Assembly: GCF_000422865.1 (NCBI RefSeq)
Contig: NZ_AUGW01000026.1
Coordinates: 1 to 49,383, forward strand
Direction of reading: 5' to 3'
Origin: Oceanospirillum maris DSM 6286
GTDB lineage: Bacteria > Pseudomonadota > Gammaproteobacteria > Pseudomonadales > Halomonadaceae
Length of the DNA: 49,383 nt
The notes under the pieces were generated by a model. The model ran no database searches, had not been told where the DNA came from, and worked only from the letters and a program-made list of their open reading frames with translations. Both the position numbers and the translations under genes were made by a program. This document shows, one piece after another, positions 12,000 through 49,383 of this stretch (its first letter is position 1; the number at the start of each line of letters is the position of its first letter).

Positions 12000-12482
12000 C
12001 TACTCCTCAAACTGTTCCGCTAGCTTCTTAAGCACCGTCAACTGACGTTGCGCCTCATGAATCGCCGCATTAATCTTGCCCGACTCCACCCGATCCACCG
12101 CACCGTCATCCAGCGCCTTAATCACCTCCTGAATCGCACGATTAGCACCATCCATCACCGCCGCACCAGAACCCAGTACATCCAGATCCGTCAGCTCATC
12201 CCGCACATCATCCAACCACGTCCAAGTTGCGCCCACCGGCTCACCCAACGCCTGTAAAATGCGCGGGTCTTTGGTCAGCTCTAAAATGGCCGTCACCTCA
12301 TCCGCATTCAGCAGGTGGCTTTTAATGGTGGGATTCAGCTTGTTACCCAGCGTGCGTGGATTCCAACCGAAAACCGCAGACACCGCCTGCGGGCCACCGG
12401 GGTAATCGTAAACCGCGTGATAACACGCCAAAGACAGCGACACCGTGCCGCCATCGTGTTTAAGTCCTGCTCCGCGTCCCAT
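12000..12482 (-). CDS. Phage regulatory protein CII (CP76-type)
   Basis: A 160-residue protein matching the phage regulatory CII family related to CP76. The N-terminal helix-turn-helix region (YHAVYDYPGGPQAVSAVFGW ... TLGNKLNP) is followed by a helical oligomerisation part. These proteins activate lysogenic promoters early in infection. Position directly after cro in the pR operon fits. About 25 nt separate it from cro. Confidence 0.75.
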   Translation of the reverse strand: MGRGAGLKHDGGTVSLSLACYHAVYDYPGGPQAVSAVFGWNPRTLGNKLNPTIKSHLLNADEVTAILELTKDPRILQALGEPVGATWTWLDDVRDELTDLDVLGSGAAVMDGANRAIQEVIKALDDGAVDRVESGKINAAIHEAQRQLTVLKKLAEQFEE

Positions 12483-12508: not shown

Positions 12509-12724
12509 TTATCGCGAGGCCGCAGCGGGCAAACTATCATCGGTCAGCACCAACTCACCGCAATAACCCGCACGCAGCACACCACCGCTAACGTGTTCAA
12601 TTTCAAACTGACGGCGCATAGGAACCTGCTCACCCCACTGAGAAACAGCAGACTTGGAAACGCCCAGCGCCTTTGCCAACGCTGAAGCGCTACCAAAAAA
12701 GTCAATGGCAGTTTGTTTATTCAT
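12509..12724 (-). CDS. Cro/YdaS-like repressor
   Basis: A 71-residue DNA-binding protein. Residues 5-30 (TAIDFFGSASALAKALGVSKSAVSQW, here split by its turn) form a helix-turn-helix of the Cro/YdaS type. The start at 12724 is chosen over 12754 because GAGG lies 7 nt ahead and homology starts there. It is the first gene transcribed left from the CI operator region. By analogy it represses cI after induction. Confidence 0.8.
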   Translation of the reverse strand: MNKQTAIDFFGSASALAKALGVSKSAVSQWGEQVPMRRQFEIEHVSGGVLRAGYCGELVLTDDSLPAAASR

Positions 12725-12755
12725 ATACGCCTCAAACAACTTACAAAGAACCAAG

Positions 12756-12820
12756 AGTTTATCCTGCTAAACTTTCAAAGTCTACAAAAGCGAACCATAA
12801 AAGGTTTAGCATTCTTAACC
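12756..12820. promoter_or_regulatory. oR region: two CI-type operators between cro and cI
   Basis: A perfect operator AGTTTA-TCCTGC-TAAACT occupies 12756-12773 and a variant GGTTTA-GCATTC-TTAACC occupies 12803-12820, touching the cI start codon. Centre spacing is 47 bp. The leftward pR promoter would have its -10 within or next to the first site. A plausible rightward promoter for cI uses TTTCAA (12773-12778) and CATAAA (12796-12801). Occupation of the second site would block cI, as in autoregulated repressors. Confidence 0.75.
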
Positions 12821-13453
12821 ATGCATATATCAGAACGAATCAAACAAAGAATGACAGAGCTGAATATCAGGGCCGTTGATATTTCAAAGACCTTGAAAGT
12901 ATCGAAAGGCGCTGTCTCCCAGTGGCTTAATGGCGCAGCCAAGCCCAGCGGCGAAAACCTATTCCGACTTAGCGGACTACTTAAGTGTTCTCAGGAGTGG
13001 TTGATCTCAGGAAAAGGCGAGCCTGAATCCCAGCTGATCCAAGACACAACCCCTGGCCCTGAGTTTAAAAAGAAACTGCCTCTTATTAGCTGGGTTCAGG
13101 CTGGCTCTTGGTCAAGTATCGTGGAGAAGCACCCAAGCCAAGCTCTTCACTACCCTTGTCCGGTTGCCTGTAGCGATCGCTCATTTGTATTGGAAGTACA
13201 AGGTGTCAGCATGGAGCCACAATTCAGAAATGGAGATCTGATTTTCGTTGACCCTGAATCAGAGTGGCGCAACGGATCTTATGTAGTGGCCCGTCTTGAT
13301 GATGAAGATGAAGCAACCTTCAAACAGTTAATCATTGAAGGCGGCCATAAGTACCTGAAACCCTTAAACTCTAATTGGCCTGAGCAAATCATCCCAATTA
13401 ACGGCAATTGCACCATCGTTGGCGTTGTTGTCTTTGCTGGTCGAGCTTTTTAA
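12821..13453 (+). CDS. CI-like prophage repressor, LexA/S24 peptidase fold
   Basis: A 210-residue repressor. The N-terminal helix-turn-helix lies at about residues 18-38 (AVDISKTLKVSKGAVSQWLN). The C-terminal S24 domain has the Ala94-Gly95 cleavage site, catalytic Ser130 (GVSMEP) and Lys168. RecA-stimulated self-cleavage, and hence SOS induction, is expected. The ATG at 12821 is preferred. No good ribosome site precedes it and an operator abuts it, so the mRNA may be nearly leaderless, as for lambda cI from pRM. Confidence 0.9.
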   Translation: MHISERIKQRMTELNIRAVDISKTLKVSKGAVSQWLNGAAKPSGENLFRLSGLLKCSQEWLISGKGEPESQLIQDTTPGPEFKKKLPLISWVQAGSWSSIVEKHPSQALHYPCPVACSDRSFVLEVQGVSMEPQFRNGDLIFVDPESEWRNGSYVVARLDDEDEATFKQLIIEGGHKYLKPLNSNWPEQIIPINGNCTIVGVVVFAGRAF

Positions 13454-13485: not shown

Positions 13486-13538
13486 AGTTTAAATATCTAA
13501 ACTTTTTGTTGACCCCTTATAGTTTACTTGGCTAAACT
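13486..13538. promoter_or_regulatory. oL region: two perfect CI operators over a rightward promoter (pL)
   Basis: AGTTTA-AATATC-TAAACT (13486-13503) and AGTTTA-CTTGGC-TAAACT (13521-13538) are perfect 6-bp inverted repeats, centres 35 bp apart. TATAGT at 13518-13523 matches five of six -10 bases and would start RNA near 13530. Alternatively TTGACC (13509-13514) with TAAACT (13533-13538) would start near 13545. Either way CI would repress the plus-strand transcript. Confidence 0.75.
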
Positions 13539-13712
13539 CTATTCCGAGCTAACAAGCCGGATGAGTTTAGAGCTTTGACCGGCAGCCTCGGAATCAGGTC
13601 AAAGATTTCCCAGCCCCTAACAAGGATCGACTGGCTACCGGCGGTGATCGCAAACCGCCATTGAGTTCTTTAGGCAATAAAAAACCCCGCCTCGGGTGAG
13701 GCGGGGTTTTGA
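13530..13712 (+). ncRNA. Predicted structured RNA from pL with pseudoknot-like pairings
   Basis: No ORF of note occupies this stretch. Perfect 8-bp complements are CTAAACTC (13532-13539) with GAGTTTAG (13563-13570), ATTCCGAG (13541-13548) with CTCGGAAT (13587-13594), and CTTTGACC (13573-13580) with GGTCAAAG (13597-13604). The second and third interlock as an H-type pseudoknot. The first and second also interlock. A further hairpin GGCGGT/ACCGCC lies at 13640-13659 and the transcript would stop at the terminator 13681-13710. Function is unknown. Options are an antiterminator RNA acting in cis, like HK022 put sites, or a regulatory small RNA. Confidence 0.55.
13681..13710. terminator. Strong bidirectional Rho-independent terminator
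   Basis: A perfect 13-bp stem (AAAACCCCGCCTC/GAGGCGGGGTTTT) closes a 4-nt loop, with T-runs in both directions. It ends the DUF2971 cargo operon on the minus strand and the pL transcript on the plus strand. Confidence 0.9.
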
Positions 13713-13718
13713 GATAGA

Positions 13719-14609
13719 TTAGAGCTGGCGGTAGGGGATGTCGCTACATTCGATTTTTACATGCTCAAAGTCACTTCCGAAGGAGCCTAAAAATCTTTGC
13801 AGGCTTTGTTCCGCTAAAGCTTGATCTGCGCAGGGACCAATAATGATCCTCTTTAAATTTTCCGTATTGAAATTAAGCTTTATATATGGAATCAGTATAT
13901 TCATTTTTTCTCTAAAATTAGGGTTTACAATTTCTCTTTTGCAATTTGCTATTATCCGAAATTCACTTTCTTCCATAAAGTGCTTATTCTTAAAAATGGT
14001 TAAATTATTGAAATAAAAAGTGAAAATCTCAAACATTTCATCAATATTTGGCTTGTATTTTCTATCATTAACACCTCTCAAATAAATATTATATATAAGA
14101 TCTAAATAACTATTAATGAAATTTATTGTTGCAGCGTTTTTTTCATGCTCACCATAAAGACAACTGGAATGATAGATATAATATTCATCAGAATTATCAT
14201 CACCTTCATAACCACTAATACTTGATATTGATTCAAGGCCAGAAAAACCTAAGCATAAACCACCTTCGGGAGGGCAATAACCTCTCCACTGACTTAACAA
14301 ATCAGGTTTGGCTGAAAAAGAAATTGAGTAACTGTCTAGTTTTGCTTCATCAAAAAAATCTGGAGATGCGAACTCAATGATTGCAGACCTAATAAAATCT
14401 AGATCCTTTATTAATGACCATAGCTTGCTTTTCTCTACTATTTGTTCAAAATCACTTTGGCATAAGAAATTGTTTATATGGGCTATAAAATCCTTCCCTT
14501 CTTCAGAGTCATTCAGATAATTAATATCTGTCATCCAAAGAGACTGGCTGTCAAGCATCCCTTTAAGACCACCAATGCTGGTGTAGTGGTAAAGTAAATC
14601 ATCTGCCAT
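13719..14609 (-). CDS. DUF2971 family protein, last gene of cargo operon
   Basis: A 296-residue soluble protein with the family landmarks LYHYTS at residues 6-11, LW-T-INYLND near 24-33, LSQWRGYCPPEGGLCLGF near 105-122, EESEFRIIANC and a C-terminal IIIGPCADQ plus DIPYR. Known from family knowledge: DUF2971 proteins are widespread on mobile elements and have no established biochemical role. The conserved His-Tyr-Thr at the start recalls an ADP-ribosyltransferase-like arrangement, but that is speculation. The gene is A/T rich relative to phage genes and follows the DUF6414-like gene by 33 nt. Confidence 0.75.
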   Translation of the reverse strand: MADDLLYHYTSIGGLKGMLDSQSLWMTDINYLNDSEEGKDFIAHINNFLCQSDFEQIVEKSKLWSLIKDLDFIRSAIIEFASPDFFDEAKLDSYSISFSAKPDLLSQWRGYCPPEGGLCLGFSGLESISSISGYEGDDNSDEYYIYHSSCLYGEHEKNAATINFINSYLDLIYNIYLRGVNDRKYKPNIDEMFEIFTFYFNNLTIFKNKHFMEESEFRIIANCKREIVNPNFREKMNILIPYIKLNFNTENLKRIIIGPCADQALAEQSLQRFLGSFGSDFEHVKIECSDIPYRQL

Positions 14610-14642
14610 GATAAATCCTTATTAAAATACACCTTATTTGAT

Positions 14643-15590
14643 CTACAGCTCAAAATATATAGCGATGGGGTCTATAACAACTTCCGATTCGGCCTTACCG
14701 GATATTGAGCAGTCTATGTTGAACATATGCTCAGAGAAGTTATCGACAGCAGCTCTTAAGTTAGAAAGATCCGGCTTATCTAGTTTTTTAATCTTTTGAG
14801 ACTCTCCAAGTCCTTGAGAAACCATCCCAAAAACAACAACATCTTTACCTGTTTTTCTGGCGTACTTGCTAAGAACGCTTTTGTACGTTTCACGTAAACA
14901 ATCTCTATTTAATACAGTCGAAAATTTAACCCCTGAAATTTCTTGAGTTAACATAAGCTGTTTATCAAAACCGAACTCAATCATCCCAGAAAGCCCATTT
15001 AGAAAATCCTCTGAGAGCCGCTCACCGTGGAGGCTTTCATGAACTATAGCTGCAACACCTTGTTTCTCAATCCTTGAAATAAGCTTTTTGTCATCACTGT
15101 TTTTCTTAGGCTTATTTTTCAGCTTTTCAAATTCTATTTTTTTCTCTGCAATTAATTCACGGTGACTAGCATTTGCTATATCAACTGCCAAATTACGATA
15201 ATTTTTCATAAGCTCATAAAGCTCAGCAAAATCAATAAACTTAGCTTTAGATTTTATTTTTACAAAAGAATAATCACTTAAAATCTCTGAAGCCTCTTCC
15301 ATATCAGTTTCAGAATCAATCGTTAATACTTTACCTGACTCATGCATTTCTTTTTCAAATAATGTCATTGAGTAATCATGCAGATACTTTTTCTCTGAAC
15401 TTACTTTTGACTCTCTCATAACATCAGCAATAACTTTACTGCTACCACCAAGCTCTTTCTTTGTGTTCGTACCGCTGTCATCTCGGCCAATAGATTCTTC
15501 GTTAAGCACATACTCCGTAACACCCTCAAAAATCTGAGATGAAAGAGAGAACATTTTGTCATTATCTAAGTAAATAAAGCTCTTAATCAC
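14643..15590 (-). CDS. DUF6414-like protein, cargo operon
   Basis: A 315-residue soluble protein beginning IKSFIYLDNDKMFSLSSQIF, which I associate tentatively with DUF6414. A Lys-rich helical segment lies around residues 130-175 (IAEKKIEFEKLKNKPKKNSDDKK split). The start is GTG with AAGGA 7 nt ahead. It follows a 51-aa membrane protein by 29 nt. No catalytic motif is recognised. The name rests on my memory of the N-terminal pattern, so the family call is moderate. Confidence 0.6.
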   Translation of the reverse strand: MIKSFIYLDNDKMFSLSSQIFEGVTEYVLNEESIGRDDSGTNTKKELGGSSKVIADVMRESKVSSEKKYLHDYSMTLFEKEMHESGKVLTIDSETDMEEASEILSDYSFVKIKSKAKFIDFAELYELMKNYRNLAVDIANASHRELIAEKKIEFEKLKNKPKKNSDDKKLISRIEKQGVAAIVHESLHGERLSEDFLNGLSGMIEFGFDKQLMLTQEISGVKFSTVLNRDCLRETYKSVLSKYARKTGKDVVVFGMVSQGLGESQKIKKLDKPDLSNLRAAVDNFSEHMFNIDCSISGKAESEVVIDPIAIYFEL

Positions 15591-15619
15591 AGTGCATCCT
15601 TATACTTTCATGTTCACAT

Positions 15620-15775
15620 TTATTTTTTTATTTCTTCGTATCTCTTACGCCGCTCTTCTCGCTCAGCCAGGTACTCATCTGAGAATTTTTTTCTCGTATC
15701 TATTACGGTATAGATAGAAAAACCTCCTCCGAGAAGTACAGCCAGCAAGGTTATTAACATCATTGCAGTTTCCAT
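15620..15775 (-). CDS. 51-aa single-pass membrane protein, cargo operon
   Basis: A short gene with one hydrophobic segment (AMMLITLLAVLLGGGFSIYT) at about residues 4-23 followed by a highly charged helical tail (YLAEREERRKRYEEIKK). AGGAG lies 8 nt before the ATG and the gene starts 3 nt from the stop of the 143-aa membrane protein. The tail would face the cytoplasm. Tight spacing with neighbours on both sides and a good ribosome site argue that it is real. Confidence 0.65.
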   Translation of the reverse strand: METAMMLITLLAVLLGGGFSIYTVIDTRKKFSDEYLAEREERRKRYEEIKK

Positions 15776-15777
15776 AG

Positions 15778-16209
15778 CTAATCTCCTGCTCTCTCGGTTT
15801 TCACCTGCTGACTAACGGCCTGATACTTTGAAGCCCTGTAGCTAAAAACCGCACACAGCGTAAATGAGACCCCAGCAATTACCATCAGATAGCTTCTAAC
15901 GACCTGAGCATTGAAATTGGCTACACCGCCCTCAATCGAGACCACCGCAGTAAAGGACACACTGTAAATCGCCAAAAATGCGATCGCGAGTCCATTCGCC
16001 CATGTCTTCCAAGCCGACTGGTCATCGATGTGTTCAAGCTCATTAATGTTGGATATATGAAGGATCAAACCAAACGCAATAATATCCGAGGATGAAATAA
16101 ACTCCACCCCTCCACCTTCAGATATCGAATAGATAAATAGCCTGCCAATCATCGGAATAAGACCAACAATTACGGTATATACAAGCCACTTGTGCATTTT
16201 AAGACCCAT
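15778..16209 (-). CDS. Four-segment membrane protein, first gene of cargo operon
   Basis: A 143-residue integral membrane protein with predicted segments at about residues 8-28, 40-55, 72-92 and 105-127, and a short charged tail (QQVKTERAGD). No family is recognised. AAGGA lies 7-8 nt before the ATG. It heads a minus-strand operon of four genes that ends at the 13681-13710 terminator and runs against the phage left operon. Small multi-pass membrane proteins often act as membrane-disrupting effectors in defence modules. That role is a hypothesis here. Confidence 0.65.
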   Translation of the reverse strand: MGLKMHKWLVYTVIVGLIPMIGRLFIYSISEGGGVEFISSSDIIAFGLILHISNINELEHIDDQSAWKTWANGLAIAFLAIYSVSFTAVVSIEGGVANFNAQVVRSYLMVIAGVSFTLCAVFSYRASKYQAVSQQVKTERAGD

Positions 16210-16262
16210 AGGCTTTCCTTATGTATGTTTCTCAATTCCCAATCAATAAACAAAGGCCAAAT

Positions 16263-16565
16263 ATGACCAAACAACCTAACGAAACTTACTGGGTAATCCG
16301 CGACCAGAATGGAACCCTAACCATGCACCAAATGAAAGGCAAACCCCAAACTGACACCTGCCAAATTCTTAACAGTTTCCCACCCGTTCCGTCACATATC
16401 GCCCTATCGACTCTTAGTGCTGTCATTAACAAACGAAAGATTGCCAAAGAGCTGGTTAACATTGGTGCCCAACTCACAGCCCAGCTTAACGTGAGCAAAG
16501 CTCAATCAAAATCCCCCCAACAAGGACAGCCCCATGAAACCAAATCAGAAAGCCCACTCACATAA
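16263..16565 (+). CDS. Hypothetical small early-left phage protein
   Basis: A 100-residue polar protein starting at 16263, where AAGG lies 6 nt ahead. The N-terminus (ETYWVIRDQNGTLTMHQMKG) looks like a short beta sheet, with a helix after it. Its last codons overlap the next gene by 32 nt. The end shares the peptide QQG-PHETK with the end of the 97-aa gene at 17284, because both run over a repeated ribosome-site block. It is divergent from the cargo operon, so a promoter may lie in 16210-16262. Confidence 0.55.
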   Translation: MTKQPNETYWVIRDQNGTLTMHQMKGKPQTDTCQILNSFPPVPSHIALSTLSAVINKRKIAKELVNIGAQLTAQLNVSKAQSKSPQQGQPHETKSESPLT

Positions 16566-16845
16566 AGAACTTGAGCGAGAGCTGCTGTTAGCTAAAGCCG
16601 AGCTTTGCAAACTTAAAGCCCGCGATTTAGAGGATCACAGTCAGCCCTCTATCTGGCTTGTTGAAGTTGAAGGCGATGCAACGCGCCTGACCCGTTTAAA
16701 GTCAAAACCAACACTGAAGCCTGATCAGGTGCTTGAAAGCTACCCTCTGGTTGATGCCGGGGTAGCTTCTGTTTACCTGTCAGCGATCAATCGTGGTTTT
16801 CAACCACCACGTTGCCTTTCTCATCTTGAAAAGCCGTCCGACTAA
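16534..16845 (+). CDS. Hypothetical small phage protein, paralogue of the gene at 17564
   Basis: A 103-residue protein. Residues 10-32 (HKELERELLLAKAELCKLK, then ARDL) are nearly identical to part of the 82-aa protein at 17564. The C-terminal half (SIWLVEVEGDATRLTRLKSK ... ESYPLVDAG) instead resembles the N-terminal half of the 100-aa protein at 16263 in layout (W-V, L-T-L, K-P, S-Y/F-P). AAGGA precedes the ATG. It appears to be a shuffled fusion of two neighbouring small domains. Confidence 0.55.
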   Translation: MKPNQKAHSHKELERELLLAKAELCKLKARDLEDHSQPSIWLVEVEGDATRLTRLKSKPTLKPDQVLESYPLVDAGVASVYLSAINRGFQPPRCLSHLEKPSD

Positions 16846-16975
16846 ACCCGCAGACGGTCATTTTTGATTGTTGCTTCTTCATACAGCCTCCGTTCTTAAA
16901 GCAAATGTCCTTGTGGGGAAAACCATCATATCAAGGATTACTTTTATACAGCCATAGCAAAAAAGGCGCATGCCA

Positions 16976-17287
16976 ATGCAAACCACTCAAGACCTGACCC
17001 TTAACGGTGTCACGCTGACCCTTTCGGTTGAAGCCTCTCCCGAGGCGTTGCAATCTCTGGTGATTAACGAGATCAGCCTTAAGCGGTTCTACGAACAATA
17101 CGGTGATATTCGGGAGGAGGCTTTCCCAGGTATCACGCAAACCCTTAACAAGGCGCTGATCGATCTGCATGAGCGCACATCAAGCATTCTGTCCATCCAT
17201 ATCAGCCAGCGTATGACGCGGCTGTTTCGGGAGGAGCCTGAATCCAATCGGCAACCCAAACCCACTAAAGAGGATGCTAAGCCATGA
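16976..17287 (+). CDS. Hypothetical small phage protein (TTQ family member 1)
   Basis: A 103-residue protein; the second ATG is chosen because AAAGG is then 9 nt away and the start aligns with its paralogue. The N-terminus (MQTTQDLTLNGVTLTLSVEA) is an evident paralogue of the next gene (MKTTQQLSIDGITVTLAFEA). The middle is helical. It overlaps the next gene by 4 nt (ATGA), indicating translational coupling. Function unknown. Confidence 0.6.
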   Translation: MQTTQDLTLNGVTLTLSVEASPEALQSLVINEISLKRFYEQYGDIREEAFPGITQTLNKALIDLHERTSSILSIHISQRMTRLFREEPESNRQPKPTKEDAKP

Positions 17288-17577
17288 AAACCACTCAGCA
17301 GCTCTCAATAGATGGCATTACAGTAACCCTTGCTTTTGAAGCGCCCCTTGAAGCCGTTCGCACTCTAGCTGAAGACGCGCATGCTCCTGTAACACTCTGT
17401 AATAGCCGTCAAGATGTTCGTCTGACAGCATTACCTGAGGTTGCTCAGGCAATGAGTGCTGCATTGCCTTCATTACTGCAAAGCATCCAGTCAGACCTAG
17501 TTGCAACGGCTTACGAGCTGGAGACCGGGACAAGATCCGAGACACACCAACAAGGACGGCCACATGAAACAAAATAG
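17284..17577 (+). CDS. Hypothetical small phage protein (TTQ family member 2)
   Basis: A 97-residue paralogue of the preceding protein, similar over the first about 35 residues and less so after. The C-terminus (THQQGRPHETK) is encoded by the repeat block that carries the ribosome site of the next gene, exactly as at the end of the 16263 gene. Coupled to its neighbours by overlaps on both sides. Function unknown. Confidence 0.6.
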   Translation: MKTTQQLSIDGITVTLAFEAPLEAVRTLAEDAHAPVTLCNSRQDVRLTALPEVAQAMSAALPSLLQSIQSDLVATAYELETGTRSETHQQGRPHETK

Positions 17578-17812
17578 CCTGATAAAGCAACAGAAAGCCT
17601 TCGCAGAAAGCTACCGTTTACGGGCAAAACACCTCAAAGAAGGGCATCCCGATAAAGAGCTTGAGCGAGAACTACTGCTAGCCAAAGCCAAGCTATGCGA
17701 GCTTAAAGCCCGTGATTTAATCCGCGCTGCCAAGGATCAATCAAACCGAAATTCTTTAGGGATTACCCAATCCTTCGTTTCTTGGCTCAAAAGCAAGCTT
17801 AAATCTTCATAA
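17564..17812 (+). CDS. Hypothetical small phage protein, paralogue of the gene at 16534
   Basis: An 82-residue Lys-rich helical protein starting at 17564 with AAGGA upstream. It shares KELERELLLAKA-LC-LKARDL with the protein at 16534, and its upstream DNA repeats the block CAACAAGGAC-GCC-CATGAAAC. Its end overlaps the convergent gene at 17737 by 76 nt, so the last residues (SFVSWLKSKLKSS) may not be conserved. Confidence 0.5.
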   Translation: MKQNSLIKQQKAFAESYRLRAKHLKEGHPDKELERELLLAKAKLCELKARDLIRAAKDQSNRNSLGITQSFVSWLKSKLKSS

Positions 17813-18006
17813 GGCATATCCCGCACTTGAGCAGGCAGATAATTATGCTTTTGGCACAGGTAATAGTAGATGTTATCCATGCCCTCCAAGCCCTTATAGC
17901 CTTCACGATCCCCAAGATGATCGGCAAACAGCTCTAAAGAATACCTCAGGCCACCTTGGTTCTTATGGAGTTTATGAATAATTTCATAATGTTCTTTAGA
18001 TCGCAT
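17737..18006 (-). CDS. Hypothetical 89-aa protein
   Basis: A soluble protein with balanced composition (YEIIHKLHKNQGGLRYSLEL, GLEGMDNIYYYLCQKHNYLP), not recognised. AGGA lies 8 nt ahead of the ATG. It is on the minus strand within a plus-strand operon and overlaps the preceding plus-strand gene tail by 76 nt. It follows the 172-aa minus gene by 99 nt, so the two may form one small inserted unit. Confidence 0.55.
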   Translation of the reverse strand: MRSKEHYEIIHKLHKNQGGLRYSLELFADHLGDREGYKGLEGMDNIYYYLCQKHNYLPAQVRDMPYEDLSLLLSQETKDWVIPKEFRFD

Positions 18007-18105
18007 CGTCCAATTCCTTTAAAAGTTAAAACCGTATCCCATTATAAGGACATTCCCATGATTCACCTTCGCCCCTCTTTGCCTGTCAGCTGGTCTGACG
18101 AGGCG

Positions 18106-18624
18106 TTAAAAGTGATCCTGAACAATCCGCTCCATCAACTGGTTCATCTCCTGCTCTATCTGAAACGCGACGGTCTCTTTATTGGGCAGGTCGCTTTCCT
18201 CAAGGATGCGGAAGTGCTCATCCGCGCAGGCGATAAAGCGCTTTACGGCGCTATGGCCCGACAGGGGCTTGAACACACTGTTGACCCTTCGGCCTTGGTA
18301 TTGGCGTTTCGGGTCGGGCAGAAAGAGCACCTTGTCCGGCGCTCGGGATCGGGGCGTAAGATCAATCAGTACGCCGTCTTCCCGCTCCCAAATGGTATGG
18401 AACTCTGCTTCGAGCCAGACCTTCCGAAACTCGGTAATCAGCCAGCCGACGTGCTGTTTGCCACCATTGGCGAGCACATGCTGTTCAACAATCGAGAAAC
18501 ATTCCAGAAATGGCTGATCAATCAGGGGCTGGTGGCTGACATACAGCGGTGCCTGACCGAGCACCAACTGACGGCAGAATGACTTTACGTGGGGCTTATG
18601 TTTCGCCGGTGTCCTTGGCTTCAT
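18106..18624 (-). CDS. Hypothetical 172-aa protein, cargo insert
   Basis: A soluble protein whose middle (WLITEFRKVWLEAEFHTIWE ... GVLIDLTPRSRAPDKVLFLPDP) resembles a domain in hypothetical proteins where an Ala-Glu-Phe-His-x-Val/Ile-Trp motif is followed by Asp-x-Thr-Pro. The conserved Glu and His could bind metal, but no activity is known to me. AAGGA lies 8 nt before the ATG. A longer ORF on the opposite strand has poorer composition and is treated as a shadow. Confidence 0.6.
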   Translation of the reverse strand: MKPRTPAKHKPHVKSFCRQLVLGQAPLYVSHQPLIDQPFLECFSIVEQHVLANGGKQHVGWLITEFRKVWLEAEFHTIWEREDGVLIDLTPRSRAPDKVLFLPDPKRQYQGRRVNSVFKPLSGHSAVKRFIACADEHFRILEESDLPNKETVAFQIEQEMNQLMERIVQDHF

Positions 18625-18686
18625 CGCTTATTCCTTAGCTGATTCGTCGCAATACTCTATCAAAAAAACATCATCAGGAGCCACCT

Positions 18687-19478
18687 ATGCGCCCAATCTG
18701 GATGCTGACGACGGCCATTCTTTTTCTGGCCAGTAGTTTTTTTAGTGTGCGTTTGCTGCTGCAACTGGCAGACGATGCCGCTACCGGCTGGGTTTACAGT
18801 GCGGTGGCGGTTGCTTTGGCGTTGGTGCAATACGCGGCTATGCCCTTTGGCCTGCGCCGTTGGGCGCTGGGGTTTCGGGCATCGGCCTTGCTCTACTTTG
18901 CAACATGGGCACTGCTTACGGCGCTGAGTATCGCGGCCAGCGCCGGTGCGCTGATCGGTGATACCCAGCAGCAACAGCAATTCGCTAAGACCAACAGCAC
19001 CGCTTATCAACTGTTGATCAGCCAGATTGAGCAACTGCAGTCCCAAGCAAAGGCCGTACAAACCACCGCTCAGCTGGATACCGAAAACGGCTACCGCGCC
19101 CGAGCAATGACCACGCTGGATAAGCTACCGGCCATTCAGGCGAACATTGCCGACCTACGCCTGCAACTGGATACCTTACCGCCAACCAATACCACCGCCG
19201 CTATGGCGCTGTTTGACCGCATCAGCCAGCCGCTTGGCCTAACCCCAGATCAAACCATGACCGCCGCCTACCTTCTTGTAGCCGTGCTGATTGAGCTGGC
19301 CTTAACCGTTTCAGTCATGGCACTGGCAGAAAACCCGTTACCGGTGGCTGCAAAAACTCCCAAAAGTGCCTCAAAATCCGTCTTTAAAAAATCACTGGAT
19401 TTATATACAGCCTCAAAAGAAAAGGCACGTAAGGCGTTCTGGAAAAGACTGAGGCCACCGGAAATGCACCCGACATAA
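18687..19478 (+). CDS. Membrane protein with coiled-coil loop
   Basis: A 263-residue protein. Hydrophobic segments lie at about residues 6-25, 36-52, 66-92 and 196-213. Between the third and fourth a long Gln-rich coiled coil (residues about 93-170) would lie outside the membrane. The C-terminal tail is basic. AGGAG 6 nt before the ATG supports the start. Such proteins recur in prophages and integrative elements, without a defined role. It may help in membrane-linked exclusion, which is speculation. Confidence 0.6.
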   Translation: MRPIWMLTTAILFLASSFFSVRLLLQLADDAATGWVYSAVAVALALVQYAAMPFGLRRWALGFRASALLYFATWALLTALSIAASAGALIGDTQQQQQFAKTNSTAYQLLISQIEQLQSQAKAVQTTAQLDTENGYRARAMTTLDKLPAIQANIADLRLQLDTLPPTNTTAAMALFDRISQPLGLTPDQTMTAAYLLVAVLIELALTVSVMALAENPLPVAAKTPKSASKSVFKKSLDLYTASKEKARKAFWKRLRPPEMHPT

Positions 19479-19533
19479 TTCAGAAACCAACAGCAAACCT
19501 TTCTTAAAAACTGAATCCGCAAGGAGAAGAGCA

Positions 19534-19596
19534 TTGAAGAGACTGAATACGGCCTGCCTGAATAGCCGCAATTCACTGAAAGGAATCCTCCCATGA
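19534..19596 (+). CDS. Possible 20-residue leader peptide
   Basis: A TTG at 19534 is preceded by AAGGAG with 7-nt spacing, better than most starts nearby. The frame reads 20 residues and its TGA overlaps the ATG of the following gene at 19593. This layout suggests a coupled leader. With only 20 codons and a rare start it could be chance. Confidence 0.3.
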   Translation: MKRLNTACLNSRNSLKGILP

Positions 19597-19994
19597 CCAC
19601 ACAAACACCGCCCTCTCAGGCTGGTGCCGATTTCGTGCGCTCAGCGTCTGAGATTCGCCAAAAAATTCACACCTTAGAGACAAAATCCGCTGATACCCTC
19701 TACCCAAAAACACACGATGGCTGCCACGAATCACACTACGAACTCACCGGCAGGCTAGACGGCCTTTACTTCGTTTTAGGCGAGGATCGGCCTCTTTATA
19801 CCCCGATCTATCTGTTTAATCACCTGCGTAAAAAACACCAATCGCAAAAAGCAGTCGCGCAGATTTCCGAATTTATCAAAAGCGACACAAAAGCGATGGA
19901 GCATCAAACAATAGGTCAGTATAGAAGCACACTACTCAAGATGCTGAAAAAACCCCGCAAGGAGCAAAAACATGAAAATCACCGCACAGCATGA
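19593..19994 (+). CDS. Hypothetical phage protein
   Basis: A 133-residue soluble, helical protein of unrecognised family (SASEIRQKIHTLETKSADTL, YELTGRLDGLYFVLGEDRPL). AAAGGA lies about 7 nt before the ATG. It overlaps the next gene by 23 nt in the early-left operon. Confidence 0.55.
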   Translation: MTTQTPPSQAGADFVRSASEIRQKIHTLETKSADTLYPKTHDGCHESHYELTGRLDGLYFVLGEDRPLYTPIYLFNHLRKKHQSQKAVAQISEFIKSDTKAMEHQTIGQYRSTLLKMLKKPRKEQKHENHRTA

Positions 19995-20238
19995 TGATCA
20001 AAAACCCGTTTATTGGTTGGCGGAATTTCGCGTTAAAGGCCGGTTAATGCTCTGCGAAGGGCAAAGTTACAAAGAAGCGCTTCATGGCGCAATCACCCTT
20101 CTTATTGAACAGAGTGAAGCGAAAGCTCGACAGCGGTTCCACCCTTACCCTTCAACACCTAAACCGTCAACACCCAAGCAATACCAACCAAGCCCCTGCC
20201 CATCAGGGGCTTTTTTTATGTCAGGAGACACTGCATGA
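19972..20238 (+). CDS. Hypothetical phage protein with terminator inside its 3' end
   Basis: An 88-residue protein. The first about 50 residues (VYWLAEFRVKGRLMLCEGQS ... AITLLIEQSEAKARQR) look like a small beta-alpha domain. The Pro/Ser/Thr-rich tail is encoded by sequence containing a classical terminator hairpin at 20191-20217. AAGGAG precedes the ATG. The stop overlaps the next start by 4 nt. Confidence 0.55.
   Translation: MKITAQHDDQKPVYWLAEFRVKGRLMLCEGQSYKEALHGAITLLIEQSEAKARQRFHPYPSTPKPSTPKQYQPSPCPSGAFFMSGDTA
20191..20217 (+). terminator. Rho-independent terminator within a coding end
   Basis: An 8-bp GC-rich stem (AGCCCCTG/CAGGGGCT) with a 5-nt loop is followed by seven T. It lies inside the last codons of the 88-aa gene and 18 nt before the next start. 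It should cut transcription into kil/xis/int unless translation or antitermination prevents folding. Confidence 0.75.
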
Positions 20239-20507
20239 ACGCACTCACCAAAACTCTGCCCTCTAAACGCTCAGACGCTGTTAAGGCAGACGGCAACTAC
20301 TACGCCTACACCGAACAGCAGCTACGACAGCATGACATTCGTATCGGCTACTTTGAAATGGCCGCCCAGCGCGACCAAAACAACCGCGTATTTTGGTTTC
20401 TAACCGGCTGCGAAACCACCACCTGCAAACGCACCGCCCGTAAAGAAGCCATGCAAGCCAGCAAGTTGATGACCTCAGGAGCCTATCATGAGTCTCTTAA
20501 CCGTTGA
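20235..20507 (+). CDS. Hypothetical phage protein
   Basis: A 90-residue protein, unrecognised (ADGNYYAYTEQQLRQHDIRI, VFWFLTGCETTTCKRTARKE). AGGAG is 7-8 nt before the ATG. It overlaps the neighbours by 4 and 20 nt, so it is cotranslated with them. Confidence 0.55.
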   Translation: MNALTKTLPSKRSDAVKADGNYYAYTEQQLRQHDIRIGYFEMAAQRDQNNRVFWFLTGCETTTCKRTARKEAMQASKLMTSGAYHESLNR

Positions 20508-20793
20508 AGAAGCCGCTAAGAAGCTGAACTTCCCAGGAGGGCGCAACGCCCTGTACAAGTTTTTGCGTCAACACGCCGGCTTTCAGGGAACCGTGCCACC
20601 TTACAACCTCTGCCACTTACAGCCGTTTTTCATTGTGAAAGACGGCGTGTACGAACAGGGCCGCAAGAAGGTGTACACCCAAACCACCAAAGTCACTAAT
20701 GAAGGCCTGACGTTTATTGCACAACTGATGAATGAACGGCTACCCCAGAATCAACCAAACTCTAAGGAGAATGCTCATGGAACACATGCCTAA
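20488..20793 (+). CDS. KilAC-domain phage antirepressor-type protein
   Basis: A 101-residue protein matching the KilAC domain: LTVEEAAKKLNFPGGRNALY at residues 4-23, aromatic middle (PFFIVKDGVYEQG), then TTKVTNEGLTFIAQL. KilAC domains are found at the C-terminus of phage antirepressors and bind DNA. Here the domain stands alone, without an N-terminal Bro-N. A separate Bro-N gene lies at 1281-1799, so the two halves of a typical antirepressor are split across the prophage. Confidence 0.7.
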   Translation: MSLLTVEEAAKKLNFPGGRNALYKFLRQHAGFQGTVPPYNLCHLQPFFIVKDGVYEQGRKKVYTQTTKVTNEGLTFIAQLMNERLPQNQPNSKENAHGTHA

Positions 20794-20989
20794 ACTCATG
20801 CCTCTTGAGAAGTGGAGAACAGAGCGATTCACTCACCCACCGGGTAAGTCTACTGTTCGGAAATGGGCCAATAGGGGTGATATTCCAGGAGCCAAAAAGA
20901 TTGGTGGCAGCTGGTTCGTCGATATTATTGAGGAACAGCTCACCACAGGGGATGAATTGGTTGATTCGGTATTGAGAGCAGGAAGATGA
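20777..20989 (+). CDS. Excisionase-like protein (Xis)
   Basis: A 70-residue protein with LMPLEKWRTERFTHPPGKST, WANRGDIPGAKKIGGSWFVD: the winged-helix pattern of excisionase-like proteins (residues 7-50). Xis bends attachment-site DNA and drives Int toward excision. The start at 20777 has AAGGAG 7 nt upstream. Its stop overlaps the integrase start by 4 nt, the usual xis-int coupling. Confidence 0.8.
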   Translation: MEHMPKLMPLEKWRTERFTHPPGKSTVRKWANRGDIPGAKKIGGSWFVDIIEEQLTTGDELVDSVLRAGR

Positions 20990-22095
20990 ATACCCGCAAA
21001 CAAGGCAGAAGAAACCAAGGGCTTGAGCCCAATCTGTATAAAAATGGCGACTACTACCGCTATCGTCACCCCATCACTGGAAAGTTTCACGGTATGGGTA
21101 CAGATAAGACGAAGGCAAACGTGGCCGCCCGTAAGCTCAATGCCATTCTGACCGCCAATACTGATCTGGCCAAACGCATCCTAGCTAACTCAAGTGCAGA
21201 TACGTTTGGCAAGCTGATCGATCGGTACAAGAATGATTATCTGCCCACCAAAAACCTGAAACAAAAGACCCTTCAAATCGTTAACTACCAACTGAACCGC
21301 CTTGATCAAGATCTTTCAACTAGCCCACTGGACGGGATGACCGTCCACTTTATTTCCAACTACCTTGATGAAGGCTTTAAAAACAACGCCTATATCAAAA
21401 TGCGTATTCTAATGATCGATGTATTCCGATACGGCAGAACCAAGGGATTGGTAAACGAAAACCCAGCAGAACATACGCTCAAGAAGACTCCAGATGCCAA
21501 AAAACGAAGAGCAATGACCCAGCGCGACTTTGACCTTATCTATCGCCAAAGCCCAGAATGGCTACAGATAGCAATGGATCTTGCTCTGGTGACACTGCAG
21601 CGCCGTGGCGACCTCTGCAAAATGCGCTATGAGGATATTCGAGAGGACTGCCTTTATATCATTCAGCAGAAAACAGAAAAACACGGCCTGCGGGCAAGGC
21701 TGCGCATCAAAATGACCGATACCTTGGCTGATATCATTCATAGAAGCCGCGCTGATGGTATCGCCTGTCCTTTTGTCATTCACAGAAGACCTTACAGAAT
21801 TAAACGCAGCAATATTTTAGAGCACTGGGCACAGGTAAGGGACGAACTCCTATCAAAAGAGTTCGCGAAATACCGAGACAAGGTTTCGACTATTGCAGCC
21901 CTTCCCGCTGAAGAGCGCCCCACTTTTCATGAGATCCGCGCGTTGGGTGGGCATTTGTATTTACAGGCTGGTTTTGATCCAGAATACGTACAAACCCTGA
22001 TGGGTCACAGCACCGGAAAAATGACCGCACACTACACTGACAGGCATGAAGACTGGACTGAGTGCAGAGCTGATTTCAGCTTAAAACGTAATTAA
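20986..22095 (+). CDS. Phage integrase, lambda-type tyrosine recombinase
   Basis: A 369-residue integrase. The N-terminal about 60 residues form the arm-binding domain (NLYKNGDYYRYRHPITGKFH). The catalytic domain shows Arg206 (LQRRGD), Lys229, His315-x-x-Arg318 (HEIR), His341 (GHS) and nucleophile Tyr350 (HYTDR). All key residues are present. It abuts a tRNA-Val gene, its likely attachment target. Length equals lambda Int (356) within normal range. Int should be functional. Confidence 0.95.
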   Translation: MNTRKQGRRNQGLEPNLYKNGDYYRYRHPITGKFHGMGTDKTKANVAARKLNAILTANTDLAKRILANSSADTFGKLIDRYKNDYLPTKNLKQKTLQIVNYQLNRLDQDLSTSPLDGMTVHFISNYLDEGFKNNAYIKMRILMIDVFRYGRTKGLVNENPAEHTLKKTPDAKKRRAMTQRDFDLIYRQSPEWLQIAMDLALVTLQRRGDLCKMRYEDIREDCLYIIQQKTEKHGLRARLRIKMTDTLADIIHRSRADGIACPFVIHRRPYRIKRSNILEHWAQVRDELLSKEFAKYRDKVSTIAALPAEERPTFHEIRALGGHLYLQAGFDPEYVQTLMGHSTGKMTAHYTDRHEDWTECRADFSLKRN

Positions 22096-22180: not shown

Positions 22181-22257
22181 TGGTAGACATGACTGGACTC
22201 GAACCAGCGACCCCTACCATGTCAAGGTAGTGCTCTAACCAACTGAGCTACACGTCT
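22181..22257 (-). tRNA. tRNA-Val (anticodon GAC), prophage attachment site
   Basis: The minus strand gives a 77-nt cloverleaf: acceptor AGACGTG paired with CATGTCT, D-arm with AGCTCAGTTGGTTAGAGC, anticodon stem CTACC/GGTAG with loop TTGACAT (anticodon GAC), T-arm with GGTTCGAGTCC, and encoded CCA (TGG at 22181-22183). The 3' end faces the integrase, so integration restored an intact tRNA at this junction. The other half-site, a copy of the tRNA 3' part, was not found in the window. Confidence 0.95.
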
Positions 22258-44162: not shown

Positions 44163-45587
44163 TTAAGCCGCAATTGCAAGCTTCTCTATAACTTGGCCTG
44201 TTTTTTGTGTCAGCTGCTCAACTGTTGGAAGAGTAATTACTTTTCTTTTTTCAATAATATTTTCGATTATGGGCTTAAGCTTCGCTTTAGCAAAAGATTT
44301 ACGACCACTTGCTGCGTACATATCACGAAGAAAATCAGGAACATCTATAGATTTGAACTCATCAATAGCGGCTTCAGCCTCCTTCTCATTCAACATATAG
44401 TCAGTAGCAAGCTTACCGAATACCTTCTCCACTATTGCTAGCATTTCCTTTGCATCATCTTCAATAAGCCCATCAAGTACCGTACTCGCTGCTGCATTTG
44501 CTGCAGATCCTCCAGCAAAAGCGCCGAATAGACCACCAATAATTCCACCAGCGGCAGTTCCTATAATCGGAATTGCTGACCCTAATGCAGCGCCACCTGC
44601 TGCGCCAGCCATCCAGCCCCCTGTTCCTCCTGCAACACCAGAAGCCGTCGAGGCAATGTTCTTAAATAATTGAGCACCCGAGCATCGTCCTTGGAACATA
44701 TGAACAAAATCAGTAGACGAGATAACCAAAGTAGTAACAACACCCGTGACAATATTTCCACGTAGGAGCTTACTGACGTGATTCATAGCAGCAGCACCAT
44801 ATATAGAGTTACCGGATCGTAAACCCTTAGCGATCCACGCAGCTGCTTTGGGGCCCATTTGCTTAACAACCCAATCAGTAGTTCCTCGCAAACTTTGCTC
44901 GACTCCTGTTCGCCCAAGTTGAGCTGTAATAATACTGCTGGCCCAAGCAACCCCTCCTACCTTTAATCCAACATAGCAAGAAGATTCCAGAGCCTTTTCA
45001 AAGCCTTCTCCGCCCCATAGACTGACAGCAAAAGATACGGCAGCAGAAACTCCCATTGCAGTACCTGCTAATTTTATTCCATTTACAGCATCGTAAGTGA
45101 GACCTTCAATCGTTCCAAATTTCGCAATATTTCTCACTTGCTCATAGGTAAAAGCACCTTTTCTGACAATATCCTTAGCCAAACGGGAGTCGGTCACCCC
45201 TGCCACTTGACCTTTTTGGATTCTGTTTTCCATAGCCTGTACTGCAGAATCATATTGATCAGAAGGAACTTCGATCTGCATAGGACTACCGTCACTATTC
45301 CAATACCGAAAACTTCCCTTATCAAAACATTCACTTATACATTTCGAGCCTGAATTACAGTATTTAGTTTGTATATTTACGCCATTAACGAATCTATCCG
45401 CACCATTTTTAGCGTTATCACCACCCACAATTTTTGCATCTTTGCCAAACATCACATCTTTCATGTGGTTTGCTTTTTCAGCGGCAAAACCATGACCTCT
45501 GCTTGCACCCAAAATAACATTGTCCGCATAATTTTCAGAGCTTCCAATAACCCCAGCAGTAGTTCCAACTTTATCCTTTTTATTCAT
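44163..45587 (-). CDS. Putative nuclease-membrane fusion protein (474 aa)
   Basis: The N-terminal about 150 residues have Glu37 in HGFAAEKANH, Asp64 in KNGADRFVNG and Gln73-x-Lys75 in NIQTK. This E...D...QxK order resembles PD-(D/E)XK nucleases (inference). Conserved Cys lie in KYCNSGSKCISEC. A middle part (residues about 150-300) has amphipathic and hydrophobic helices. Residues about 310-365 are Gly/Ala-rich like glycine-zipper membrane segments. A charged helical tail ends the protein. Homologues of unknown function exist across proteobacteria, as I recall. The start at 45587 has AGGA 8 nt ahead. Confidence 0.6.
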   Translation of the reverse strand: MNKKDKVGTTAGVIGSSENYADNVILGASRGHGFAAEKANHMKDVMFGKDAKIVGGDNAKNGADRFVNGVNIQTKYCNSGSKCISECFDKGSFRYWNSDGSPMQIEVPSDQYDSAVQAMENRIQKGQVAGVTDSRLAKDIVRKGAFTYEQVRNIAKFGTIEGLTYDAVNGIKLAGTAMGVSAAVSFAVSLWGGEGFEKALESSCYVGLKVGGVAWASSIITAQLGRTGVEQSLRGTTDWVVKQMGPKAAAWIAKGLRSGNSIYGAAAMNHVSKLLRGNIVTGVVTTLVISSTDFVHMFQGRCSGAQLFKNIASTASGVAGGTGGWMAGAAGGAALGSAIPIIGTAAGGIIGGLFGAFAGGSAANAAASTVLDGLIEDDAKEMLAIVEKVFGKLATDYMLNEKEAEAAIDEFKSIDVPDFLRDMYAASGRKSFAKAKLKPIIENIIEKRKVITLPTVEQLTQKTGQVIEKLAIAA

Positions 45588-45702
45588 CAATGATTTCCTA
45601 TGATTGATGCGACTAACTTGAAGAAGGAGCTATTGCTAAGCAGACTTTCCCTCTGTTTACTCGTTTTCTATTGTTTATTTTTTGGCAGGTAAAAAACAGT
45701 GA

Positions 45703-46279: not shown

Positions 46280-46530
46280 GTGTACGCCCAGCATGGGCAT
46301 GAACTAATGAGGTGAAAGTCCTCTGTAGGAAGGTCACCATCCTTAGCGATTTATGTCGTTATTAGATGTTAACGACTAGCGAATGGCAAGGGCAAGACCA
46401 CGAGGTTTGGTCTGAAGGAAGCCGCTAGCACTCTTGCTAGAAAATTGAGCGAGCTGATGAGCAAGAACATCATATGAGACGTAGGCTGGAGGCTAGATAC
46501 CTCCGGCCACCCGATCATGGTGCAATTCGC
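46280..46530 (+). mobile_element. Truncated group II intron, 5' part (copy A)
   Basis: Begins GTGTACGCCCAGC and contains GAGGTGAAAGTCCTCTGTAG and ACTAGCGAATGGCAAGGGC ... GAAGGAAGCCGCTAGC, as in domain I of bacterial group II introns. It is about 80 percent alike to copy B at 49078. It stops near 46530 with no reverse transcriptase, so it cannot move alone. It abuts an attC-like hairpin, as class C-attC introns do. Confidence 0.7.
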
Positions 46531-46590
46531 AACATATGTAGCAATATGCTACGATCATATTGTTACTAAAACCATATTAGGAGATATATC

Positions 46591-46812
46591 ATGGCTACGG
46601 CAAGTGTGCGAATTGACCAAGATCTTTTTGATAAAGCCACGATTATGGCTAAAGCATTAAATCGTACGACACCAAAACAAATTGAGCATTGGGCGAAAAT
46701 TGGGGAAATGATGGAAGACAACCCTGATTTACCCTATGAATTTGTAAAACAAGCTATTATCTCAAAAGCAGAGAAAGAAGCTGGTAAATTAGAGGCTTAC
46801 ACCTTTGACTAA
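46591..46812 (+). CDS. ParD-like antitoxin
   Basis: A 73-residue protein matching ParD-like antitoxins (TASVRIDQDLFDKATIMAKA, NRTTPKQIEHWAKIGEMMED). The N-terminal ribbon-helix-helix should bind the operon promoter, and the C-terminal tail should block the toxin. AGGAGA lies 9 nt ahead of the ATG. It overlaps the toxin gene by 8 nt. Confidence 0.85.
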   Translation: MATASVRIDQDLFDKATIMAKALNRTTPKQIEHWAKIGEMMEDNPDLPYEFVKQAIISKAEKEAGKLEAYTFD

Positions 46813-49077: not shown

Positions 49078-49383
49078 GTGTACGCCCAGCATGGGCATGA
49101 ACTAATGAGGTGAAAGTCCTCTGTAGGAAGGTCACCATCCTTAGTGATTTTAATATCACTATTAGATGTTAACTACTAGCGAATGGCAAGGGCTTAACCG
49201 CGAAGTTGGGTCCGAAGGAAGCCGCTAGCAAAACTGCGAGCTGATGAACAAGAACATCATAGGAGGCGTAGGCTGGAGGCGAGTTGGCACAAGACGACGA
49301 AGCCATGTGATCTAACGGCCACCGTAAATGATGCAGTTGCGCAGGGAAAGTTCATGTCCTTATCTGGGGAGATCTGCTTAACA
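49078..49383 (+). mobile_element. Group II intron, 5' part (copy B), cut by window end
   Basis: Begins GTGTACGCCCAGC like copy A and continues further, to TTCATGTCCTTATCTGGGG and AGATCTGCTTAACA, sequence usually found just before the intron-encoded reverse transcriptase. Compared with copy A, stem sequences change on both sides (for example GTGAT/ATCAC against GCGAT/GTCGT), supporting a folded RNA. The reverse transcriptase gene should start shortly beyond the window. Confidence 0.75.

Follow-up and report, generated by a model that had tools for sequence, protein, structure and literature searches.

An untranslated leader behind the operator-flanked leftward promoter of a lambda-like prophage in Oceanospirillum maris may act on transcription elongation

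In a lambda-like prophage of Oceanospirillum maris DSM 6286, an untranslated leader that directly follows the leftward promoter (PL) may act in cis on transcription elongation, a reading to which we assign a probability of about 0.5. The window, that is, the whole stretch of 49,383 nucleotides that was analysed, corresponds to contig C22 in a draft genome of 3.7 Mb. Of three same-genus prophages, this is the one whose boxA seat is filled by an unfamiliar leader, which makes the question open to simple reporters. The operators, the promoter match, the position of the leader, its hairpins and what relatives carry at the same seat can be read from the sequence itself and are treated in turn below, together with the readings that compete for them.

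A CI-type repressor, Cro and CII are found in the standard layout of a lambda-like CI/PL control region, and the arrangement of cI, Cro, CII and integrase genes therefore makes the plus strand the "leftward" direction of the switch (Table 1). In lambda, CI operators lie around the leftward promoter, which is followed by an untranslated leader with nutL. When all 49,383 bases were searched, the perfect palindrome AGTTTA-N6-TAAACT was found in three exact copies flanking cI, whereas 200 mononucleotide shuffles gave 0.015 copies on average; with up to three mismatches the pattern was no commoner than chance (32 found, 26.7 expected). The same operators stand at the cI/cro junction and at the leftward promoter after cI, where two of them bracket PL and the -10 hexamer (TAAACT) is part of the second. 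The initial annotation had described two perfect operators overlapping a plus-strand promoter, and this was confirmed by the exact palindromes at 13486-13503 and 13521-13538 and by a 9-of-12 promoter. Such a promoter match is weak alone, since four sites of this quality were present in a 3-kb scan with 5.8 expected. The layout of PL, with TTGACA and then TAAACT within the second operator, recurs in the viral contigs L037 and L040, which in a comparison with 12 window proteins matched only CI and Cro, plus CII weakly in L037. Tandem pairs of such operators were found in five viral contig stretches. One of these (L038) carries a leader identical to that of the window, letter for letter, and is the same prophage. 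As far as sequence can tell, the promoter-operator anatomy at PL is real, and operators, promoter and layout together support well the control of a leftward untranslated leader by CI.

Table 1. Coordinates of the PL leader, its control region and related elements. Positions are those of the window unless a locus is named.
Feature	Position	Strand	Remarks
CII-like activator	12000-12482	-	CP76/CII match
P22-type Cro	12509-12754	-	P22_Cro match
Operator between cI and cro, AGTTTATCCTGCTAAACT	12756-12773		exact palindrome
cI repressor	12821-13453	+	HTH_3 and Peptidase_S24 domains; Pfam/PHROGs scan
Left operator 1, AGTTTAAATATCTAAACT	13486-13503		exact palindrome
PL promoter	13509-13538	+	TTGACC (13509-13514), 18 nt, TAAACT (13533-13538); 9 of 12
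Left operator 2, AGTTTACTTGGCTAAACT	13521-13538		exact palindrome; overlaps PL -10
Untranslated PL leader	13545-13680	+	start presumed from -10 spacing
5' hairpin	13546-13589	+	inner stem GCCGG/CCGGC, 13556-13560 with 13579-13583
Alternative helix, CTTTGACC/GGTCAAAG	13573-13580 with 13597-13604	+	
Hairpin GGCGGT/ACCGCC	13640-13659	+	pair probabilities 0.99-1.00; ends 5 nt before the boxA-like site
Degenerate boxA-like site, GTTCTTTAGGC	13665-13675	+	candidate only; 9 of 11 vs GYTCTTTAANA
Perfect 13-bp hairpin, terminator-like	13681-13710		better T-tract on the minus strand
Opposite-strand cargo	13719-16209	-	DUF2971, DUF6414, further ORFs
Left operon	16221-22095	+	small ORFs, antirepressor-like gene, integrase; putative operon structure
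KilAC-type antirepressor-like gene	20488-20793	+	in left operon
Integrase	20986-22095	+	lambda-type arm-binding domain
tRNA gene	22184-22257		adjoins integrase
Partial copy of leader 3' part plus possible integrase N-terminus	L005:1272-1576		own genome, contig C3, near dusA-like gene
R3 leader RNA	L071-L094, L096-L108 (e.g. L019:2360-2458)		early leftward leader

From the usual spacing to the -10 element, the PL transcript presumably starts near 13545. The description of the leader as non-coding is fair, the sole ATG frame in 13545-13680 being one of five codons. A 42-codon open frame without ATG also runs through it; a coding reading of the leader, with a frame ending DWLPAVIANRH*, was rejected for its missing ATG and few matches, and a 27-residue query against 58 genomes returned, besides the window itself, the copy in the own genome (E 0.004) and eight weak matches (E 0.35-0.99). 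The frame is retained solely within the recombination reading treated below.

Three perfect 8-bp complements in this region (13532/13563, 13541/13587 and 13573/13597) had been proposed to interlock in a pseudoknot or a switch between exclusive folds. All three exist, but only 13573/13597 would be fully transcribed. The pair 13532-13539/13563-13570 includes the -10 hexamer, so that 13532-13539 is absent from the PL transcript, and since +1 is expected near 13545, positions 13541-13544 and with them half of the 13541-13548 arm are probably absent too. Of the interlocked fold, the 13573/13597 helix thus stays available, and each of the other two pairs loses bases to the promoter or the start. The whole window contains 69 complement pairs (at least 8 bp, span of at most 75), and three of them come together within 75 nt in just two regions; the clustering in the leader is unusual. 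In predicted folds, the inner GCCGG/CCGGC stem of the 5' hairpin was kept at all four starts folded (13544-13547), and the outer stem was shortened but kept from 13544 or 13545, gave way to a long-range stem from 13546 and was gone from 13547. The best nested fold with the 13573/13597 helix had -41.9 kcal/mol, 3.4 worse than the optimum of -45.3 when nested folds only are considered.

The folding z of the whole leader, terminal hairpin included, was -4.78. Without this hairpin (13541-13675) it was -2.1, and 8 of 300 shuffles folded as well. The 5' part, 13541-13604, reached -2.6 (5 of 300 shuffles as good), and 13541-13594, the ends of which were picked on the fold and which includes bases before +1, reached -4.2 (0 of 300); 13605-13675 was no better folded than shuffles (z -0.5, 93 of 300). 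As a control, 150 random 135-nt segments of the window had a mean z of -0.5, with 4% under -2.5. The leader without its terminal hairpin appears modestly better folded than shuffles, mostly from the 5' hairpin.

We then compared the seat of the leader in relatives. A relative of CI was detected at E <= 1e-15 in 54 of 275 family genomes, the own genome included. An exact rRNA-type boxA, GCTCTTTAACA, was present in 11 of the 29 CI-homologue loci fetched (L008-L036), in all cases on the cI strand and 142-1309 bases beyond the CI match. In L037 and L040, which have the operator of the window, boxA directly follows PL; an exact boxA is absent from L039 and L041 although tandem operators are present. 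Downstream of cI, the same-genus prophages L055 and L056 have a hairpin, then boxA, a strong hairpin, variable cargo and a left operon related to that of the window, and as in L037 and L040 the boxA occurs once, in this leader. The promoter ahead of the leader is a 10-of-12 match in L056, and only 8-of-12 sites were recovered in L055. Both prophages match the CI, Cro, CII, replication-region protein, antirepressor-like gene and integrase of the window, and L055 additionally its 18687 gene. The window keeps the plan of these relatives, with a hairpin, 5 nt, a boxA-like site, a strong hairpin and cargo. Its three cargo genes have no match in L055 or L056; the cargo of L055 includes an ABC-three-component-like domain (under the Pfam cut-off) and a DUF2326 protein, and that of L056 a D12 methylase and a DndB/DpdB-like protein.

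Two side observations were made on these loci. Unrelated cargo, in part with matches to defence-associated models, separates the PL leader from the left operon in the three same-genus prophages (window 13719-16209, L055:11411-15097 and L056:5641-8272). Another conserved untranslated leader, of about 250 nt and with boxA first, is shared by L037:6802-7050 and L040:11545-11800, at 75% mean column identity, and both contigs carry the operators of the window.

No rRNA-type boxA matching GYTCTTTAANA, the gammaproteobacterial consensus published in passages of PMC5725501, was found in the leader, and the best site, GTTCTTTAGGC, has two mismatches; by our own count it keeps the C4 stressed in those passages. 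The leader also holds no exact boxA and no site within three mismatches of CGCTCTTTAACAA. Such a match is common, with 146 equally good sites in the window where 112 are expected, and the closeness of GTTCTTTAGGC to the boxA GCTCTTTAACAAT is equalled by 1.2% of random 24-nt windows and by 10% of random 139-nt windows. GTTCTTTAGGC is a boxA candidate by place, noticed after the fact. At 15 of 23 distinct boxA places the most stable hairpin of the 45 nt upstream ends at most 5 nt away, a count that has no control. The covariance model of a boxA-linked leader RNA of related prophages (R3, see below) had its best position in the leader at the boxA-like site, with 6.5 bits and E 0.023 for 241 bases searched alone; a wider search gave nothing at the leader at E <= 5, and the own genome had no R3 match at E <= 0.01. 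The word GYTCTTTA occurs 14 times in the window (e.g. at 13665, 27193 and 48230) compared to 4.4 expected from dinucleotide shuffles, and this threefold excess is a caution against reading boxA into single sites. The assembly contains no 16S gene for a comparison with the host rrn boxA, and GCTCTTTAACAA has a single exact occurrence in the genome, at a locus without Rfam match at gathering score.

In the mechanism that we favour, CI would bind the two left operators and shut PL in the lambda-like switch of a temperate phage. Upon induction, RNA polymerase would make the leader from about 13545, and the leader, placed in the seat of an early antitermination site, would render the polymerase resistant to pausing and termination. 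It could then transcribe through the hairpin at 13681-13710 and some 2.5 kb of cargo, antisense and untranslated, and enter the left operon, whose last gene is int. The core would most likely be the 13640-13659 hairpin together with the boxA-like GTTCTTTA at 13665, an rRNA-type arrangement to which the 5' hairpin may add. The start site, the read-through and the binding of Nus factors or polymerase are what we infer here.

The hairpin at 13681-13710 had been called a strong terminator. Its 13-bp stem is perfect, with a T-tract that is poor on the PL side: the tail is TTTTGAG on the plus strand (T-score 3.2), where the hairpin may act weakly, and TTTTTTATT on the minus strand (4.8), and a simple terminator scan listed the hairpin on neither strand. 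The same bias was seen in L008, which is the same place as L055 (1.95 vs 3.86 on the opposite strand), and in L018, the same place as L056 (1.74 vs 4.04). The hairpin faces the convergent cargo gene that ends at 13719 and may act for that gene no less than for PL. For PL to serve the left operon, polymerase would have to ignore termination. PL need not serve it, because 9-of-12 promoter-like sites lie ahead of the left operons in L055 (two) and L056 (one) and the window has six 8-of-12 sigma-70 sites on the plus strand at 15600-16560, compared to 8.6 in shuffles. At 15500-21000, no 9-of-12 sigma-70 site was found, with 5.3 expected. The idea of cis-acting antitermination, raised in the initial annotation, is thus favoured by the boxA seat of the relatives and by this lack of 9-of-12 sites; against it count the lack of a put match, the loss of bases from two of the three pairings at the promoter or start, the poor T-tract and the failure to find a homologue.

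HK022 put had been named as the possible parallel. To our knowledge, put is the sole route past terminators without N that is known in structural detail. As in HK022 putL, an untranslated leader with hairpins and possibly factor-free action directly follows PL in the window, but a put model (R1), built from 12 put sites with HK022 putL and putR among them, gave at most 4.1 bits in the leader with filters off, compared to 92.3 bits for putL and 68.8 for putR. With its eight base pairs this model is mainly a test of sequence. Being put is unsupported; a put-like way of working is possible. In passages of PMC9378689, put is described as acting by RNA alone and via the beta' zinc-binding domain. 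Elsewhere in the window, at 46657-46735 on the plus strand, a 15-bit R1 match was seen (E 0.022 in about 105 kb searched) that is probably due to chance.

The window resembles lambda PL/OL with nutL in that operators around a leftward promoter after cI are followed by an untranslated leader; in contrast to lambda, no lambda-type boxA-boxB site was recognised in that leader. Nor was an N-like antiterminator matched when five left-operon ORFs (16221, 17956, 18687, 20986 and 20488) were compared with Pfam and four of them also with PHROGs. The likeness to the rRNA-type boxB-boxA of rrn leaders and to the suhB boxA treated in passages of PMC5725501 lies in a hairpin just before a boxA-like site, which in the window departs from GYTCTTTAANA at two positions. 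With R3 the leader shares the seat after cI, on the cI strand, but scores 6.5 bits, whereas of the 30 aligned rows 28 reach 72-114 bits and the other two 29.7 and 23.6.

Homologues of the leader proved scarce. By BLAST, 4 of 97 relatives had a match, the three besides the own genome only in the hairpin part, and the own genome contained the window and one partial copy. A model (R2) built from the window leader and the identical viral-contig copy found the own genome only among 275 family genomes under stricter filters. In phage records, searched at E <= 10, the hairpin part only was matched among the 20 of 87 matches listed. Exact leader cores were found in viral contigs only in the same prophage (L038) and at one place in a coding region (L068), and the exact core was absent from genome contigs. 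The leader is without match in the genome of L055 (G003), and the genome of L056 (G002) has only hairpin pieces elsewhere. Relatives of the integrase were found at five loci of genome contigs, none with the operator and none with a CI match; one of them carries GCTCTTTAA. Apart from the partial copy, the 275 family genomes yielded no homologue by which covariation of the leader fold could be weighed.

It seems unlikely that the leader is instead a small RNA of some 165 nt that arises only upon induction, is released at 13710 and acts in trans by pairing with mRNAs of phage or host. Its CI-controlled start, the lack of a gene inside, the stable hairpins and a terminator-like hairpin at the end would suit such an RNA, but the T-tract in the PL direction is short. 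Moreover, when the leader was paired with 27 start regions of the window, one of which was misplaced, its best predicted duplex was equalled by 16 of 60 shuffled leaders, and the leader had no Rfam match at gathering score, a sub-threshold ar14 lying on the other strand at about 13678-13799 (L007:2358-2479) with 31.8 bits vs a gathering score of 58.8.

It is rather improbable that the leader holds a new RNA-only antiterminator, neither put nor boxA, based on the 5' hairpin and the 13573/13597 helix. Such an element, of a third kind and located in the boxA seat of one prophage, would switch between two folds, the 5' hairpin and the CUUUGACC/GGUCAAAG helix, and thereby let CI-controlled transcription either end at the 13681-13710 hairpin or cross the antisense cargo and reach the left operon; we hold this switch to be improbable too. 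The leader does occupy the boxA seat in a prophage without exact boxA, and it has an unusual cluster of complements and a stable 5' hairpin; put itself, according to passages of PMC9378689, acts through its RNA alone. The lack of a homologue, hence of covariation, argues against a new antiterminator, as do the truncation of two of the three complements by promoter or start and the shuffle-like folding of 13605-13675.

Equally doubtful is a functionless leader, in which a sequence, perhaps from the 3' end of a former gene and including its terminator, would have been inserted by recombination between PL and the cargo. This reading draws on 13628-13704, a stretch with a 95% identical copy elsewhere in the genome, flanked by a yccF-like and a dusA-like ORF (named by translation). 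In the copy, the hairpin is present, the boxA-like stretch is more degenerate and one arm of the terminator is damaged. Between window and copy, the two substitutions upstream of the stop codon leave the residues of the frame ...WLPAVIANRH* unchanged, so 13628-13704 may derive from the end of a former reading frame that was moved together with its terminator. The end of a small frame by dusA, MARVQSRKLRDGSTRY, resembles what we take to be an integrase start, and the copy region would then be a decayed element at dusA. A T-tract favouring the opposite strand in all three same-genus leaders and the shuffle-like folding of 13605-13675 also fit a leader without function, but the operators and promoter are intact and the 5' hairpin lies outside the shared stretch. 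We retain a PL leader acting in cis as the preferred reading.

The boxA leaders of the family share a covarying RNA, R3, of about 85 nt after boxA (about 100 nt in all), which is possibly a larger finding than the window leader; the window itself is without it. The R3 model gave 24 matches in 21 of 275 family genomes at E <= 0.01, six of them at places from which it had been built, and among 390 genomes sampled from the order it matched three, all of the same family and already known. No Rfam 15 match was found for R3 members, whether with L019, L025 and L027 at E up to 0.5 or with L071, L072, L080, L082 and L084 at gathering scores. Phage records queried with the L019 leader and with that of L040, which is of a different class, returned nothing, and no description of this RNA was found in the literature as judged from titles and abstract openings. 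On 24 distinct rows, 14 of 19 pairs have changes on both sides in an alignment fitted to the model. Pairing was possible in 95.2% of cells, compared to 32-44% when slid, and none of 500 shuffles reached any of five measures. All but one of the 24 matches retain the core GCTCTTTAA. Upstream on the same strand, a CI-like frame was found in 16 of the 24 genome matches (1.5 kb inspected) and in 9 of 13 viral contigs found by the exact core. The relatives suggest that prophages of this family commonly combine an rRNA-style boxA with a covarying partner RNA into an early elongation signal.

Two further features of the window were recorded. A 475-residue protein with glycine/alanine-rich stretches and without Pfam match is encoded at 44163-45590 on the minus strand, and two group II intron matches (RF02001), one of them barely over the gathering score, lie at 46394-46545 and 49194-49358.
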